Shown here: positions 8,881-21,140 of the stretch, in pieces
Position numbering within the stretch: position 1 is the stretch's first letter
Layout: each line of letters starts with the position of its first letter
Origin: a virus
IMG/VR virus record: IMGVR_UViG_3300032224_001348
Location: 1-21,140 of that record
Strand: one strand, 5' to 3'
DNA length: 21,140 nucleotides
The notes under the pieces: model-generated
Seen by the model: the letters and a program-made list of their open reading frames with translations, nothing else
Told to the model about the DNA's origin: nothing
Database searches by the model: none
Translations under genes and position numbers: made by a program

Positions 8881-10274
8881 TACGGAATACCGCCGCCACC
8901 ACCGAAGCCGTTACCAAAGGGCCACGTTCCGTTAGTCCACTGCACGTCCGCAATCGTCGCGGGCGAGCCGGCATCGCGGTTCTCGGCCGCAGCCTCAATG
9001 CGCTTGATCAGTGCCGCCTTCTGAAACTGAAGAACGGATGTATCTGACTCTTCCTTCTGAAGCATCTTGATTGCGGCATCCGTGACCACATACTCAAGCC
9101 AACCAGACACGCCATCGGCCACCGTGTTCGGCTGCTCAACCACCGGAGGCGTGATCGTGCCAGTGCCATAAAGCGTCGTCGTTACGTTGACGTTGCTGCA
9201 CGCAACGTAGAGCGGCGTTGCCGAGTAAAACGAAAGCTGCGTGCCGGAAGTCGCCTCTTGATACGGCGCCACGTACTCCGGATGCGTTGCTGCATAAGCA
9301 TCAATCGCAAGCTGAATGTTGCCAATGGTTTCGGAAATGCCAACGCCGACCTGGAACTGAACTTCCGAGGGCTCGGTGATGTTGCTAACAGCAGTAAACA
9401 GCACGCTTCCGGCCTGAACCGTGTCACCAATAGACAGGTTCGCAGCAAAATCCATTTTGCCGACAATTGGAAATGCAGAAGCGCTTTCAACCGTGAAGGC
9501 GTTGACGTTGTTGGTCGAAACGTTGAACGTCGTGGGCTGCCGAATGAACAAGACACCAAGCGAGTAGGTGGCCGTGTACGTCGTCGTCTGCGCCGCGATA
9601 GCCGCAAGCAGGTTGGCAGCGGTCGCGTCAGCGTCACCGTTAACCGCGATGAACTCGTACGCTGCCGGATTAGCGTCAACGGCCGTATAGGTGTCGCCAG
9701 CGATTACAAGCGTGTCGCCAGCAAGGACAGTGGTGTTAACGCCAACAACATCAAGAAAATCGTTTGGCAAATTGTTGTACGGAATTGGCTCTGGCTGCAC
9801 AACGTCAACCAGTTCCGCAAGGCGCGGGATGTACCAGATCCGAATGGTCTGCCCCGTCTGCGGCGACGGCGTGAACCAAAGCGTGTTGGCGCTGATGCGA
9901 TACCGCAGGTTCGTCACGCCAATCCAGGTCTGGACGTTGGCGGTCGAGTATCGATTGCGCTCGGCCAGCGTGAACGGACGCAGCGAAACGTAGCCGTCAG
10001 GGCCACCGCTGATCTGCAAATCCACGCCAAGCAACTTGAAAAAATCAGCCGGCAAGTCATACCGAGAAATGTTCCCCTGCAACTGGAACGAGTACTCGGT
10101 CATGTAGTAGTCGTTGCCGTACTTCTGCACCAACAGGTCGTACAACTCAAAGTACGAGGCGTTGATGTAGCTGTTCAACTCGGAGTCAGAAATGAACGTT
10201 GAGTTGACCATATCCGCACGCTGACGCGATGCGGTACGGAGCTGCGCGAGGGTCATCTTCGGGTAAATAGCCAA
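8880..10274 (-). CDS. Head-tail adaptor (tail tubular protein A-like) with internal insertion, 464 aa
   Basis: I place the start at TTG 10274, which begins MAIYPKMTLAQLRTASRQRA and follows AGGAGGG by three bases. A GTG at 10310 would lie inside the hairpin before the ribosome binding site, and ATG 10256 is too far from it. The N-terminal part (helical TLAQLR...DSELNSYINASYFELYDLL, then YDLPADFFKLLGVDL and IRIWYIPRL) and the C-terminal part (GWLEYVVTDAAIKMLQKEES, KRIEAAAENRDAG) match the known pattern of adaptors that sit below the portal and open the tail tube. Between them, residues about 181-373 form an extra region with two related beta modules. The end is Gly-rich. The stop overlaps the next start (TAATG). 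The family call is strong; the insertion is unusual. Confidence 0.87.
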   Translation of the reverse strand: MAIYPKMTLAQLRTASRQRADMVNSTFISDSELNSYINASYFELYDLLVQKYGNDYYMTEYSFQLQGNISRYDLPADFFKLLGVDLQISGGPDGYVSLRPFTLAERNRYSTANVQTWIGVTNLRYRISANTLWFTPSPQTGQTIRIWYIPRLAELVDVVQPEPIPYNNLPNDFLDVVGVNTTVLAGDTLVIAGDTYTAVDANPAAYEFIAVNGDADATAANLLAAIAAQTTTYTATYSLGVLFIRQPTTFNVSTNNVNAFTVESASAFPIVGKMDFAANLSIGDTVQAGSVLFTAVSNITEPSEVQFQVGVGISETIGNIQLAIDAYAATHPEYVAPYQEATSGTQLSFYSATPLYVACSNVNVTTTLYGTGTITPPVVEQPNTVADGVSGWLEYVVTDAAIKMLQKEESDTSVLQFQKAALIKRIEAAAENRDAGSPATIADVQWTNGTWPFGNGFGGGGGIP

Positions 10275-16050: not shown

Positions 16051-17547
16051 CTATTGCAGCGTTGCGTCATACAACGCCAATTCTGCCTCTTGCGAACGAC
16101 GCTCTTCCAATACGCGCTCCAATTCCTGCTCTGCTTGCAGCAGCATCCAATCAGCCTCGCTCTGGCCATGCCGCAAGCCATTCGGCTGCCGCAGGTCGGC
16201 CAGATACGAGTAACAGTGCCGCCAGTTATACAGCGCAGCGTCCGCGCAATGGTTTGGCGCCGCCGGATGCTCTTCGCGCCGAGGGCTGCGCTCGTCCCAA
16301 ATCAACTGACCGTACTCGTCCATCAGCGGCGTGCATCCTTTTCGGTGCAGCTTGATGTGCCCCTGAATGAAGTCGCCGTTCATGATCTCAATAAAGTCCG
16401 CCTTCCCGGCCTTCTCGGCAGGCGTTAGCGGAATGTCGTGGCGGCGCTGCATCTCCACAATCGCCTGCTTGTTTGCGTTGTCGATGATGATCCGGTCAAA
16501 CTCAAATCGGCCCATCAGTTTGCGCGTCTGGTCCGCCACCTCGGTGATGTCGCATTTCTCTTTCTTGTGGGCGCCCAACACATACAGCGTGCGGTCAAAG
16601 TCGTGATACGCCGTCACCACCCAAGCGGTCGGGTCGTTAAACCCAAGGTCGATGCCAAGGTTGTAGTGCCAGCGACCACCGGCCTTCATCACCGGCAACT
16701 CGTCAAACGTGTTCCGTTCGTAGTCGAAGCGGTACACCAGCTTGCTGTCGTCCACCGTCCACTTGCCAAGGTAGTGCTGCTGGAACAGCGGCGTTTCTTC
16801 AATCAGCGGATTGGCAAGCTTCAGATCCTCGATCTCGGCCTTCCATTTGTCCGACATGTGCGGGTTGTCAAACGCCGTCCAGCGGTGCCCTGACCAACCC
16901 ATTTTTTCCCAGCGCCCCGGTTCACCAGGCACCTGTCCCTTGGTCAACTCGTAGAACAGCCCCCGCTTCATGTTGCCGGGGGTACCGATCATCGCAATCG
17001 TGCCTCGGTAGTCGGCAGTTGCAGGCTTCAAAATACCGTAAACCATTTCGTGCAGATCAACACCGTAGCTTGCCGCCTCGTCAATCACCACCGCCTTGAA
17101 CTTCTGCCCCAGCGCCTTGTCCTTTTCCTGCTCGTCGGCGTCCATGCCCAGCAGGTAGATCATGCTGCCGTTGGGCAACGTGACCGAGAGTTCCGTTTCG
17201 TTGAACCGGCACCCGAGCCCCTGCTCACGGTCAATCGTCTTGAGCACGTCCTTCCACATGATCCGCTTGGCCGAAGCGCGGGTCAGCGCGACGTACAAGC
17301 AGGACACGTTCGCCTGCGAGTAGGCTTCTTTGAACAGCAGCAGCCCTGCGCCGTAGGACTTGCCCGAACGACGGGTGCAAAGCACCACCTTCATGCGGGC
17401 CGGATCTTCTAAGAATGCCGTCTGCCGCTCAAACAGCGGATCCTTGAACACCGGCTCCTTCTTCTCTGCCGCCACCAGCGCAAAAAACTCGCTGCGCTCA
17501 GAAGGCGTCATCTTGGAGATGATCTTGTCCAGTTCTTCCTTGGTCAA
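16051..17547 (-). CDS. terL: Terminase large subunit (packaging ATPase and nuclease), 498 aa
   Basis: The motor that cuts concatemeric DNA and pumps it into the prohead. I place the start at TTG 17547, where TTGA overlaps the upstream stop by four bases and GGGGGAG lies eight bases upstream; the frame extends 20 codons further to a GTG with poorer support. From that start, the Walker A-like motif CTRRSGKS is at residues 57-64, Walker B VVIDEA at 153-158, and the coupling motif IAMIGTPG at 184-191. The nuclease domain has GIDLGFND (298-305), IIIDNA (353-358) and NHCADA (432-437), giving the expected three acidic metal ligands. The C-terminus is a charged helix (EQELERVLEERRSQEAELAL), a likely portal contact. 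Both catalytic halves look intact. Confidence 0.94.
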   Translation of the reverse strand: MTKEELDKIISKMTPSERSEFFALVAAEKKEPVFKDPLFERQTAFLEDPARMKVVLCTRRSGKSYGAGLLLFKEAYSQANVSCLYVALTRASAKRIMWKDVLKTIDREQGLGCRFNETELSVTLPNGSMIYLLGMDADEQEKDKALGQKFKAVVIDEAASYGVDLHEMVYGILKPATADYRGTIAMIGTPGNMKRGLFYELTKGQVPGEPGRWEKMGWSGHRWTAFDNPHMSDKWKAEIEDLKLANPLIEETPLFQQHYLGKWTVDDSKLVYRFDYERNTFDELPVMKAGGRWHYNLGIDLGFNDPTAWVVTAYHDFDRTLYVLGAHKKEKCDITEVADQTRKLMGRFEFDRIIIDNANKQAIVEMQRRHDIPLTPAEKAGKADFIEIMNGDFIQGHIKLHRKGCTPLMDEYGQLIWDERSPRREEHPAAPNHCADAALYNWRHCYSYLADLRQPNGLRHGQSEADWMLLQAEQELERVLEERRSQEAELALYDATLQ

Positions 17548-17723
17548 TGCACCATCTCCCCCAGGTTTTGCCGGTTGATAAACTCCAACAACGCCTGCTG
17601 ACGCCACAGCGCCAACTGCGCCTCTTCCAGCATGACCTGCAAATACCGAACTTCGGTCACAAGGTTAACGATGTCTGCCGCATCCTTGCGGGCCTCAATT
17701 TCGGCCAGTTCGCGGTCGGTCAT
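17544..17723 (-). CDS. Small helical protein upstream of terL, 59 aa
   Basis: The start is ATG 17723 (MTDRELAEIEARKDAADIVN), seven bases after GGAGG; a second ATG six bases earlier is too close to that site. The 59 residues form almost one continuous amphipathic helix (LVTEVRYLQVMLEEAQLALW, RQQALLEFINRQNL), probably a coiled coil. It overlaps the upstream gene by four bases (ATGA) and the terL start by four bases (TTGA). I recognise no family. Short coiled-coil proteins beside terL could assist packaging, but this is inferred from position only. Confidence 0.75.
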   Translation of the reverse strand: MTDRELAEIEARKDAADIVNLVTEVRYLQVMLEEAQLALWRQQALLEFINRQNLGEMVH

Positions 17724-17929: not shown

Positions 17930-18234
17930 TCCTGCGCCTCCCGCATCATGCGCTCGTAGTCTTCCTTCGACAGCGACCGTGACGGCATCAAATCCCCAGC
18001 CAAGGCGTCATGCTCCGCTTTGCTGATTTTCTTCGCCACGATTACCGGCACCGCCGCAGGCTTCACCCGACCGTAGCGCGTCAGCACGTCCAACGCATAT
18101 TCCACCGCTGCTACCGCGCTGCTACGCCCCGCCTGCGCCTGCTCCACCTGCCAGTAGGCGCCGTCAATGTCCGAATCAAACAACCCCTCGCGGCGCAACT
18201 CTGCTAGCTTCGCCTTTGCTTCCGCCAAGGTCAC
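17926..18234 (-). CDS. Unknown 102-aa helical protein
   Basis: The start is a GTG at 18234 that overlaps the upstream stop by four bases (GTGA), with GAGG seven bases upstream. The 102 residues begin MTLAEAKAKLAELRREGLFD and continue mainly helical (YWQVEQAQAGRSSAVAAVEY, ALDVLTRYGRVKP). A short hydrophobic strand follows (AAVPVIVAKKIS), and the end is charged (SLSKEDYERMMREAQE). I do not recognise the family. Position in the packaging end of the operon would allow a head or packaging accessory function. Confidence 0.75.
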   Translation of the reverse strand: MTLAEAKAKLAELRREGLFDSDIDGAYWQVEQAQAGRSSAVAAVEYALDVLTRYGRVKPAAVPVIVAKKISKAEHDALAGDLMPSRSLSKEDYERMMREAQE

Positions 18235-18572
18235 GAAACAACCTCATTCCCCCGCAGGGGAACGACGTTTTTTTCGTTCTCTTCCGCATACACCGGCAAC
18301 GCCGCGATCTGCTCCGCAACCTCTGCCGCCCCTGCCGCAGTCGCCACTTCCGCCGCCAGCCCACGCATCCGACGCGACGCCGCAGCCTGAAACACCGCCA
18401 CCTCGTCATCCCACAAGGCGTGATGCTCCAACTCCCGCTCTCGCAAATCTTGACTGTACCTGGCGTTCAACTGTCGCCCGATTTCCCCCTCCGGGTCCGA
18501 CAGCCGCGCCTCCAGCGACACAATGTGCGCCAGCAACTGCTTCTTCGTCCAGCCAATCCGATGCTTGCTCAT
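18231..18572 (-). CDS. First gene of the leftward operon, unknown 113-aa protein
   Basis: The start is ATG 18572 (MSKHRIGWTKKQLLAHIVSL), five bases after AGAGG; the frame runs 20 codons further upstream through the proposed promoter, without a better start. The basic N-terminus could bind nucleic acid. The middle (EARLSDPEGEIGRQLNARYS, QDLRERELEHHALWDDEVAV) is charged and helical, followed by Ala-rich helix (GLAAEVATAAGAAEVAEQIA). It is the first gene after the control region. I considered a small terminase subunit, but a better candidate for that lies at the right edge of the window, so I leave this unassigned. Confidence 0.75.
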   Translation of the reverse strand: MSKHRIGWTKKQLLAHIVSLEARLSDPEGEIGRQLNARYSQDLRERELEHHALWDDEVAVFQAAASRRMRGLAAEVATAAGAAEVAEQIAALPVYAEENEKNVVPLRGNEVVS

Positions 18573-18602
18573 GCTCACCTCTGCGGTCACTGCCGCACCG
18601 CA

Positions 18603-18632
18603 AACGTACTCCAGTTGCCGCGAATACGTCAA
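18603..18632 (-). promoter_or_regulatory. Candidate promoter of the leftward structural operon
   Basis: Minus-strand TTGACG (18627-18632), 18-nt spacer, TACGTT (18603-18608) gives a moderate sigma70-like match ending about 30 nt before the first ATG. The palindrome GTAGTGCTAC (18636-18645) lies three bases upstream of the -35 element, where an activator could bind. The -10 match is weak, so a phage-encoded or activated promoter is as likely. Confidence 0.35.
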
Positions 18633-18635
18633 CAG

Positions 18636-18827
18636 GTAGTGCTACGCCACGCAGCAGGGCTTGTACCCTCTGAGGAGGTGTATACGGGTACAGCAAATGT
18701 CAGATTTACATGGTCCTGTACCCCGTAGCGCTACGCTGTCAATATGGGGGGTTACTCTGTGGGGGGTGTATACCAATGTAGCGCTACGCCACCAAATATG
18801 GTGGGTACTCTCTGGGGGGTATATATA
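18636..18827. repeat. Three degenerate 50-bp repeats with GTAGYGCTAC palindromes
   Basis: Copies begin at 18636, 18725 and 18778. Each starts with a 10-bp palindrome (GTAGTGCTAC once, perfect GTAGCGCTAC twice) followed by GC(C/T), then about 18 bases of looser sequence, then an ACTCTSTGGGGGGTGTATAC-like segment (CCTCTGAGGAGGTGTATAC in copy 1). Copies 2 and 3 agree at about 37 of 49 aligned positions. TGTACCC (18662, 18717) and its inverse GGGTACA (18686) add further dyads, and TTGACA on the minus strand (18737-18742) lies beside the second palindrome. The array could be operators or replication iterons; see findings. Confidence 0.7.
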
Positions 18828-19133
18828 TTATAATCATTTTCCTCTGATCGATGGTCCCCTCGCGGGCGCGGGCGTGCGTGCGGGCCCGAGCGTGCGGGCG
18901 TGACGCGCGCGTGTGCGCGTGCGCGGGCGCGCTTATCACGTCGCGCTTTAACGCGCCGCGCCGTCGCGTTGCGTTAGGCGCGATGCGTTGTCGCACCTTG
19001 CGCCGACGCGCGACGACCCGACGACGGCCCGCGCAGAGCTCAAAAAAAGTTGCGCGCCCCTTGACCTGGTGCTCGCGGCACGATGCAAAACCGCTGCAAA
19101 ACAAGCCCTTTCCAGAAAAGTGTAACAAGGGTG
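18828..19133. other. Non-coding AT-rich then CG-rich control segment
   Basis: An AT-rich stretch (18820-18841, containing TATAAT at 18829-18834) borders the repeat array. It is followed by about 200 bp extremely rich in CpG, including a strictly alternating purine-pyrimidine run at 18903-18925. Then come an A7 tract near 19041 and a doubled TGCAAAAC (19084 and 19095). Open frames here are low-complexity Arg/Ala products of the base composition, with no ribosome binding sites, so I see no gene. Origin or regulatory function is possible. Confidence 0.5.
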
Positions 19134-19162
19134 TTGACATCGGATCGGAGCTGGGGCATACT
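19134..19162 (+). promoter_or_regulatory. Sigma70-type promoter for the rightward gene block
   Basis: A perfect TTGACA (19134-19139) is followed after 17 nt by CATACT (19157-19162), a good match to a bacterial housekeeping promoter. Transcription would start near 19169, at the foot of a 6-bp hairpin CGCTCG-ATGAC-CGAGCG (19170-19186), and reach the first ATG at 19200. Host RNA polymerase could therefore express this block early, which is inference. Confidence 0.7.
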
Positions 19163-20011: not shown

Positions 20012-20377
20012 ATGACGACCGGAAGAGCAGCAATCAACAGTGGTCGCCCGCTGTTTAAATTCGCCGATGCTATTGACGGCGCACGGGCAATTACGCGGGA
20101 GGAAGCGCGGGAGATCGCAAGGGTGGACCCGTCGCTGATTTATGTTAAGGAATGCGCACACCATGATTGCGAGCAACGGTGCGTCATGGTGTGGACCGTA
20201 TTCCACGCCAGCAAGGCAATTAAATCCTTTAGTTCGGTTGAAAAAGCCCGCGCATTTGCGGCGGAATCCGGTCTCGCCGTGCAGGTGGGAGACTGCGCGC
20301 TCCCCAACACAAACCCAATATATGCAGACTCATTCTGGGAAAACGGCGCTCAGGTCTACCCGCACCTGAGCGAGTAA
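20012..20377 (+). CDS. Unknown 121-aa protein, last gene of rightward block
   Basis: ATG 20012 follows AAGGGG by about six bases, and a 5-bp hairpin (19981-19998) lies just upstream. The 121 residues start MTTGRAAINSGRPLFKFADA, continue with ITREEAREIARVDPSLIYVK, and then have ECAHHDCEQRC, a cluster of three Cys and two His that might bind a metal. The C-terminal part (FSSVEKARAFAAESGLAVQV) is a helix-strand pair similar in layout to the preceding gene. No family is recognised. Its last 149 nt are overlapped on the other strand by the LuxR-type gene, and a terminator follows 19 nt after its stop. Confidence 0.78.
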   Translation: MTTGRAAINSGRPLFKFADAIDGARAITREEAREIARVDPSLIYVKECAHHDCEQRCVMVWTVFHASKAIKSFSSVEKARAFAAESGLAVQVGDCALPNTNPIYADSFWENGAQVYPHLSE

Positions 20378-20636
20378 CGCACCGCTCGCACGCATGGCGC
20401 TCCGGTCGAAAGGCCGGGGCGCTTTTGCTTGCCCAGTCAATCAGCCCGAGCCGCAGGGCCGTGGCGACGGCGTGCGTCGGCGTCCATGCCTTTAGCGCGA
20501 TGCGGAGTCGGCGCAGCCTGCCATGCGACGCCCTGGCGCTCAACCCCTCGCGCTCGCCGGCCTGTTCAACGGTCAGGCCGTCCGCAAGGTGGCGCAGGAA
20601 CGCTCGCTCGGACGCGCTCATTTCGGGCGGCTTCAT
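20229..20636 (-). CDS. LuxR/GerE-type helix-turn-helix regulator, 135 aa
   Basis: The start is ATG 20636 (MKPPEMSASERAFLRHLADG), five bases after GGGAG. Residues 6-68 follow the LuxR/GerE DNA-binding pattern: an SASERAFLRHLADGLTVEQA start, then EREGLSARASHGRLRRLRIA with the recognition helix, then the conserved closing helix HAVATALRLGLIDW. No receiver or ligand domain is present, so it is a stand-alone DNA-binding protein, as seen in several phages. The frame continues about 65 residues beyond that domain, through the terminator of the opposite gene and 149 nt into its coding end; this tail is basic and shows no known fold. It probably regulates phage genes; targets are suggested in the findings. 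True C-terminal length is uncertain. Confidence 0.72.
   Translation of the reverse strand: MKPPEMSASERAFLRHLADGLTVEQAGEREGLSARASHGRLRRLRIALKAWTPTHAVATALRLGLIDWASKSAPAFRPERHACERCVTRSGAGRPERRFPRMSLHILGLCWGARSLPPARRDRIPPQMRGLFQPN
20397..20430 (+). terminator. Intrinsic terminator of the rightward block
   Basis: GCGCTCCGG (20397-20405) pairs with CCGGGGCGC (20414-20422), nine base pairs with one G-U, around an 8-nt loop, followed by TTTTGCTT. It lies 19 nt after the stop at 20377. It ends plus-strand transcription and would limit reading into the opposing LuxR-type gene. The reverse strand has no U-run, so it is not bidirectional. Confidence 0.75.
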
Positions 20637-20744
20637 TCGCACTCCCGGTGCGGGCGAGCCGCACTTTCTAGGTCGTTTCGGCGCACTATCATGGCGCGCT
20701 TTTGTCTATCGCGCAAACCCGCGCCCAGAGCGGCCCGCAGAAAC

Positions 20745-20924
20745 TGAATGGCGCTCAGCCGCGCCCATGGCCGATTAGCGGCGTCGCACTTTTTCTTCTA
20801 TTCGCATAGTAATGTAGCACTACGCTCAAGAAAATGAATGGCGCTCAGCGGCCACCAGGGCGGACCGCAGCGATCGCACTTTTCCCTATTGACACGATTT
20901 CTGGCACACGGCATGTAGTTATAC
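20745..20924. repeat. Two 90-bp diverged tandem units
   Basis: TGAATGGCGCTCAGC is exact at 20745-20759 and 20835-20849, and TCGCACTTTT recurs at 20784 and 20874, both exactly 90 bp apart. The sequence between them is diverged. AAAGTGCG (minus-strand sense) also occurs outside the pair near 20661 and 20997, so the array may once have been longer. Confidence 0.65.
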
Positions 20925-20953
20925 GTCACCGCGCGAACTACGGACTGTCGCAT

Positions 20954-20988
20954 TGTTCCAAAGGTTCGCGTAGCGGACCGCCGGAACA
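20954..20988 (-). other. Strong stem-loop downstream of the small terminase gene
   Basis: TGTTCC (20954-20959) pairs with GGAACA (20983-20988), and inside, GGTTCGC (20963-20969) pairs with GCGGACC (20973-20979) around a 3-nt loop, with a symmetrical 3x3 internal loop (one G-U pair). It begins 25 nt after the terS stop in the direction of that transcript. No U-run follows, so it may protect or process the mRNA end, or act as a weak terminator. Confidence 0.5.
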
Positions 20989-21012
20989 CACGCCGCGCAC
21001 TTTTCGGCGCAC

Positions 21013-21140
21013 TTATTCCCGCCTCGACGCACGTTCGATCAGGATCGCAACGCGCTCCGCACGTTGCTCCGGTGACAGCGAATCCGTTTTCACCGTCAAA
21101 CGGTCCTCGAGCATCCCTAAATGCTTCGCGATGAGCTCCA
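21013..21140 (-). CDS. terS: Partial terminase small subunit, C-terminal 42 residues
   Basis: A minus-strand frame enters from the right edge and ends at TAA 21013. The visible 42 residues read ELIAKHLGMLEDRLTVKTDS, then LSPEQRAERVAILIERASRR, then E. The ELI.KHLGM...D+ motif is the hallmark C-terminal element of Terminase_2-type small subunits, which recognise phage DNA and recruit the large subunit; the N-terminal helix-turn-helix part is outside the window. It reads in the same direction as terL but is about 3.5 kb upstream, separated by the rightward block. Confidence is limited by the short length. Confidence 0.72.
   Translation of the reverse strand, partial: ELIAKHLGMLEDRLTVKTDSLSPEQRAERVAILIERASRRE

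Follow-up and report, generated by a model that had tools for sequence, protein, structure and literature searches.

The ribbon-helix-helix (RHH) repressors, exemplified by Arc of phage P22, MetJ and CopG, are very small proteins that recognize short palindromic operators, often paired, within their own sigma-70 promoters. Proteins of the LuxR/GerE class also bind dyads, and lambda-type repressor and Cro operators are short palindromes placed over divergent sigma-70 promoters of a phage. LuxR-type regulators occur on phages as well: VqmA of phage VP882 is an autoinducer receptor, and further phage-encoded LuxR-type receptors sense autoinducers (PMC6456758). Here we compare with these systems a palindrome, GTAGYRCTAC, that an uncultured tailed phage repeats in the control region of its late genes and carries once more beside a LuxR-like gene. 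On the evidence presented below, this palindrome (family form GTRRYRYYAC) is probably the operator for a conserved regulatory protein that the phage group itself encodes; most likely this is an RHH-type protein of ~50–60 residues.

The DNA analyzed here, referred to as the window, is a 21.1-kb fragment from a virus record and represents an incomplete contig. It encodes a terminase large subunit (TerL; 16,051–17,607, minus strand; PHROG 2, 5e-39), which we used as the query to find relatives. We recovered 41 related contigs that encode a TerL relative, most at 72–87% identity and five at 37–48%. The relative C37 (G042 contig 37) is a complete genome of 45.6 kb. A search of phage isolates with the same terminase found no close relative, all matches being below 60% identity and the best among the matches listed reaching 27–28%. 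The only indication of a host from a genome bin is a single match, an Actinomycetales MAG that holds a relative and that may be a binning error. At the right end of the window lies the 3' end of the gene for the terminase small subunit, terS (21,013–21,140, minus strand), which is 83% identical over 36 residues to terS of L012, itself a match to Terminase_2 (E 9e-21). The leftward late operon opens with a gene (18,231–18,632, minus strand) that has homologues (39–52%) at the same place in relatives.

GTAGYRCTAC occurs at exactly four places in the window, where 0.01 sites are expected by chance (none of 100 dinucleotide shuffles reached four). Three of these sites belong to a late control region directly upstream of the leftward late operon (18,636–18,830, minus strand), in which degenerate repeats TATAYACCCCCCASAGAGTA (repeat families D1/D2) are followed after ~20 nt by the palindrome. 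The same element is found in relatives, where the leader TATAYACCCCCCASAGAGTA is conserved alongside the late sites. The 5' member of the array, GTAGCGCTAC at 18,778–18,787, is nearest the divergent genes and also has its counterpart in relatives, and the member nearest the late genes is GTAGTGCTAC (GTAGCACTAC on the late strand) at 18,636–18,645. Between them, a second copy of GTAGCGCTAC at 18,725–18,734 is flanked by TTGACA (18,737–18,742) and TACAGG (18,715–18,720), both on the minus strand and separated by a 16-nt spacer. This arrangement scored 9 of 12 as a promoter (P = 0.005 against shuffled flanks); over late-array sites in general the association with promoters was weak, with scores barely above chance (6.5 versus 6.0). 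The fourth site, GTAGTGCTAC/GTAGCACTAC at 20,814–20,823, lies between the 3' end of terS and the LuxR-like gene. In a matrix scan of the window, with control-region sites (its own among them) as the source of the matrix, the fourth site reached 15.8 bits and the other three 15.9–17.1, whereas no other place scored above 9.4. In the literature, no phage-regulation context for GTAGCGCTAC appeared among the mentions found, as judged by titles and abstracts. We also considered CCCCCCASAGAGTANCC, an extended form of the motif, as a wide element and rejected it; outside the group it matched only at four unrelated-looking places.

The preliminary description of this DNA had proposed that the palindrome marks a small regulon and that many copies scattered inside genes would speak against this idea. 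We counted sites in the relatives. The exact palindrome is present in 12 of the 41 related phages, and their records (~605 kb) contain 26 copies, 25 of which fall in the late/divergent control region; the exception, at 9102 in G025, lies just behind an ORF that resembles an HNH endonuclease gene. Many relatives that lack the exact form carry variants, most of which are covered by the relaxed pattern GTRRYRYYAC. With the control-region boundary set at -3300, wide enough to count the window's fourth site as control, the relaxed pattern occurs 48 times in 53 kb of control region and 6 times in 231 kb elsewhere. The whole genome of C37 contains only four relaxed sites, of which three lie in its control region, and the top three matrix matches across that genome are its control-region sites. 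The sites are thus conserved in position in many related phages and are not scattered in genes, which supports the proposed small regulon. As judged from these comparisons, the GTAG..CTAC sites are real operators common to a group of uncultured phages.

The divergent genes provide a second context for the sites. In relatives, the divergent promoters are strong sigma-70 promoters of the form TTGACA-17-TAnnnT, with the palindrome in the spacer; the site lies 2–3 or 10 nt past TTGACA, within the 17-bp spacer or across the -10 element. These promoters had a mean score of 8.9 of 12, compared to 5.8 ± 0.9 for shuffled flanks, and 12 of 14 were significant at P ≤ 0.033. Such a position relative to the promoter elements is that of an operator, and we regard these sites as operators. 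The divergent promoter of the window itself (TTGACA-17-CATACT, 19,134–19,162, plus strand), which serves the rightward genes, lacks an operator, unlike those of the relatives. An AATCGAC(A/G) element is found shortly 5' of the -35 element in the divergent promoters of L006, L008, L010, L012 and L038, and ATCGACA also occurs near a Cro-like gene in L048. A long G+C-rich stretch of largely alternating purines and pyrimidines (18,856–18,970) separates the window's late control region from its divergent genes, and similar stretches are present in relatives.

Repeated sites in an intergenic region that is A+T-rich in part and G+C-alternating in part could also be iterons of a replication origin or packaging sites rather than transcriptional operators. 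Yet the spacing of the palindromes within the window's late array is irregular (53 and 89 nt), and sites also occur one at a time, within the sigma-70 promoters of the divergent genes and near the RHH gene described below, so we consider an origin or packaging function highly improbable. The GC skew of C37 spoke neither for an origin nor against one.

A regulator gene next to the fourth site had suggested an obvious reader. The ORF as drawn spans 20,229–20,642 (minus strand) with a GTG start at 20,642, and an ATG at 20,636, preceded by GGGAG, is the likelier start; the fourth site lies 171 bp from the GTG and 177 bp from the ATG, in agreement with the earlier figure of about 180 bp upstream. 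The ORF begins with a LuxR/GerE-type helix-turn-helix (HTH) domain of 67 residues (20,436–20,636, minus strand) that is 39% identical to the product of L012 786–989. The assignment to this class is distant. A single-sequence search with the window ORF gave no match to Pfam GerE, and the L012 homologue scored 18.6 against a gathering cut-off of 23.5. A two-sequence profile nevertheless matched PDB chains of DosR (2e-4), RhlR (3e-4) and TraR (1e-3), and the predicted fold of the window HTH consists of four helices (residues 10–20, 25–31, 36–51 and 55–64) with RhlR and GerE as its best PDB matches, none below E 0.001. Profile and predicted structure thus back the original description of a stand-alone LuxR/GerE-type protein. 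It shares this DNA-binding domain with the phage-encoded receptors, but is a stand-alone HTH of ~67 residues with no visible ligand domain, in contrast to those autoinducer-sensing proteins, VqmA included. Past the HTH, the ORF continues for ~70 codons (20,229–20,435), passing a hairpin and entering an ORF that points the other way. Because the L012 homologue ends directly behind its HTH and the tail crosses this hairpin, the ORF has probably been drawn too long and the tail is probably not part of the conserved protein. The G+C-rich, terminator-like hairpin itself (20,396–20,423) stands between convergent genes, and a similar one is found 3' of the corresponding gene in relatives.

According to the preliminary description, this LuxR-like protein binds the palindromes and controls both its own gene and the late operon. 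Its DNA-binding domain, its proximity to the fourth site and the affinity of its class for dyads all fit that proposal. The distribution of the gene does not. Among the 27 other family records searched, only L012 carries it, and the viral collection yielded no further viral contig with a homologue. The exact palindrome is present in at least four non-redundant relatives (L008, L013, L015 and L018) that cover the interval from terS to TerL, the L013 contig starting inside terS, and none of the four carries the LuxR-like gene. Conversely, the L012 gene has no such site upstream, even when the relaxed pattern is allowed one mismatch. Since site-bearing relatives lack the gene and the L012 gene lacks the site, gene and site are not linked, and the proposal that this protein reads the palindromes is not supported; we consider it very unlikely. 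The obvious neighboring regulator is probably not the reader, and its gene is better seen as a possible target of the regulon.

Whether the fourth site is itself functional bears on this last suggestion. The preliminary description had noted that its similarity to the late-region copy extends beyond the palindrome. The 15-mer AATGTAGCACTACGC is indeed found at 20,811–20,825, but its partner AATGTAGCGCTACGC lies at 18,775–18,789, one base to the left of the position 18,776–18,790 given previously; the extended likeness itself holds, with 85% identity over a 20-nt alignment with the copy at 18,778–18,787. The late-region palindromes could be real operators while this copy is a chance or decayed one without function. 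We found no counterpart at the corresponding place in relatives, and no sigma-70 promoter above chance around the site (7 of 12 versus 6.1–6.6 in shuffles); in L013, a homologous-looking stretch has an AGTGCG repeat in its place. Against this interpretation, only 0.01 sites are expected by chance in the whole window and ~605 kb of relatives hold a single exact copy outside control regions; the site is also intergenic and resembles the late copy past the palindrome. We regard a chance or decayed copy as possible but unlikely, and a function for the fourth site as plausible, though putative.

The region around this site contains other repeats. Seven AGTGCG repeats on one strand, four of them in the form AAAGTGCG, make up a separate motif between terS and the HTH gene (20,638–21,013, minus strand). 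We considered these as operators of the LuxR-like protein and rejected them; phages without the gene have the same one-strand clusters after terS. More broadly, AAAAAGTGCG(A/C) repeats on one strand cluster at and after the 3' end of terS in the window (20,638–21,013, minus strand), C37 (42,940–43,427) and L012 (339–925), and all six AAAGTGCG copies in the 45.6 kb of C37 lie within ~490 bp at or after the 3' end of terS. The AAAAAGTGCG(A/C) repeats could be terminase recognition sites of the pac or cos kind. In addition, a 36-nt direct repeat (AGAAAxTGAATGGCGCTCAGC...) is present at 20,739–20,774 and 20,829–20,864, 90 bp apart. Its motif recurs in L013, and the fourth palindrome stands beside one copy.

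A different candidate reader emerged from relatives whose contigs reach far enough, which share a small gene with an RHH sequence pattern, namely a basic segment of strand-like character, KRRIVLYDL, ahead of two segments predicted to be helical. This gene is present in six records of relatives; it was not found in the window, the contig being incomplete. In the 200 bp 5' of the gene, the GTRRYRYYAC pattern, which had been defined beforehand from control regions, occurs exactly in three of six cases, against 1.0% of background windows (P = 2e-5). A pair of near-matches spaced 12 nt apart occurs in four of six, against 0.15% of background windows. These P-values are optimistic, since the genomes are relatives of one another, with three of the six genes nearly identical, and since the 12-nt pairing was noticed only afterwards. 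Five of the six genomes have either an exact site or a 12-nt pair, as illustrated by the promoters TTGACGTGGCGTTATGGGTGATGCTAC in G027 and TTGACATGACGTTACTGGTGACGCTATAAA in G032. The corresponding promoter in C37 has only one site with one mismatch and one with two mismatches. Evidence against an RHH reader comes from G032, which has the RHH gene, yet whose late region (L036) contains no GTRRYRYYAC sites.

The small protein is most likely of the RHH type, as its sequence pattern fits. Its matches to Pfam and PHROG were below threshold (RHH_5 and PHROG 3431), comparison with the PDB gave no convincing match, and an AlphaFold model of the monomer was of low confidence (pLDDT 64.5) and showed no strand. 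The candidate resembles Arc, MetJ and CopG in its very small size and its succession of strand-like and helical segments, and also in the short, paired palindromic sites in its own sigma-70 promoter. It differs in that it is assigned to the class by sequence pattern only, and in that it would also act on late and divergent promoters. The same paired-site arrangement is seen at a further gene in G027 (L051 8045). There, L051 8045–9703 contains what resemble genes of a queuosine or 7-deazaguanine pathway (transglycosylase-like, QueD-like and QueE-like) beside the RHH gene, and the transglycosylase-like gene, the first of them, has the paired operator-like site in its promoter.

The reader might instead be another protein, either a host transcription factor or a Cro-like HTH protein of the phage. 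The sites overlap host-type sigma-70 promoters, and a Cro-like gene is present in the early regions that we could see. As short palindromes over divergent sigma-70 promoters of a phage, the sites also recall lambda-type repressor and Cro operators, but, unlike these, they flank the late region and the gene of RHH type. In four genomes out of four, no GTRRYRYYAC site lies upstream of the Cro-like gene, and we rejected the Cro-like protein as the reader on this basis; sites of the paired type stand 5' of the RHH gene instead. A host factor is further disfavored by the 3-Mb genome bin that holds a relative, which contains only two exact palindromes, although the link to this host is unsure. A host or Cro-like reader is therefore unlikely, if less so than the LuxR-like protein.

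Taken together, these comparisons point to real operators and a real small regulon, with the LuxR-like protein an unlikely reader, and we favor control by the RHH-type protein. In the mechanism we propose, this regulator would repress its own sigma-70 promoter through paired sites 12 nt apart, positioned between the -35 and -10 elements or across them. Through a site in the 17-bp spacer, it would likewise repress the promoter that serves the divergent genes, and by binding the tandem array of the late control region at one to three sites it would time late transcription. In the window, the extra site may have drawn the accessory LuxR-like gene into the same regulon as a target. More tentatively, one tiny, self-limiting RHH protein might switch the phages from divergent to late genes across the whole group via GTRRYRYYAC, with individual phages recruiting accessory regulators such as a stand-alone LuxR-type protein by gaining a single operator; we hold this broader scheme to be a possibility somewhat short of even.

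These results yield a testable operator, a set of promoters and a candidate regulator for late-gene control in an uncultured phage group for which the phage collection we searched contains no close isolate. The regulation resembles a known kind of phage control, to which this operator and the candidate RHH-type regulator would add a new member.
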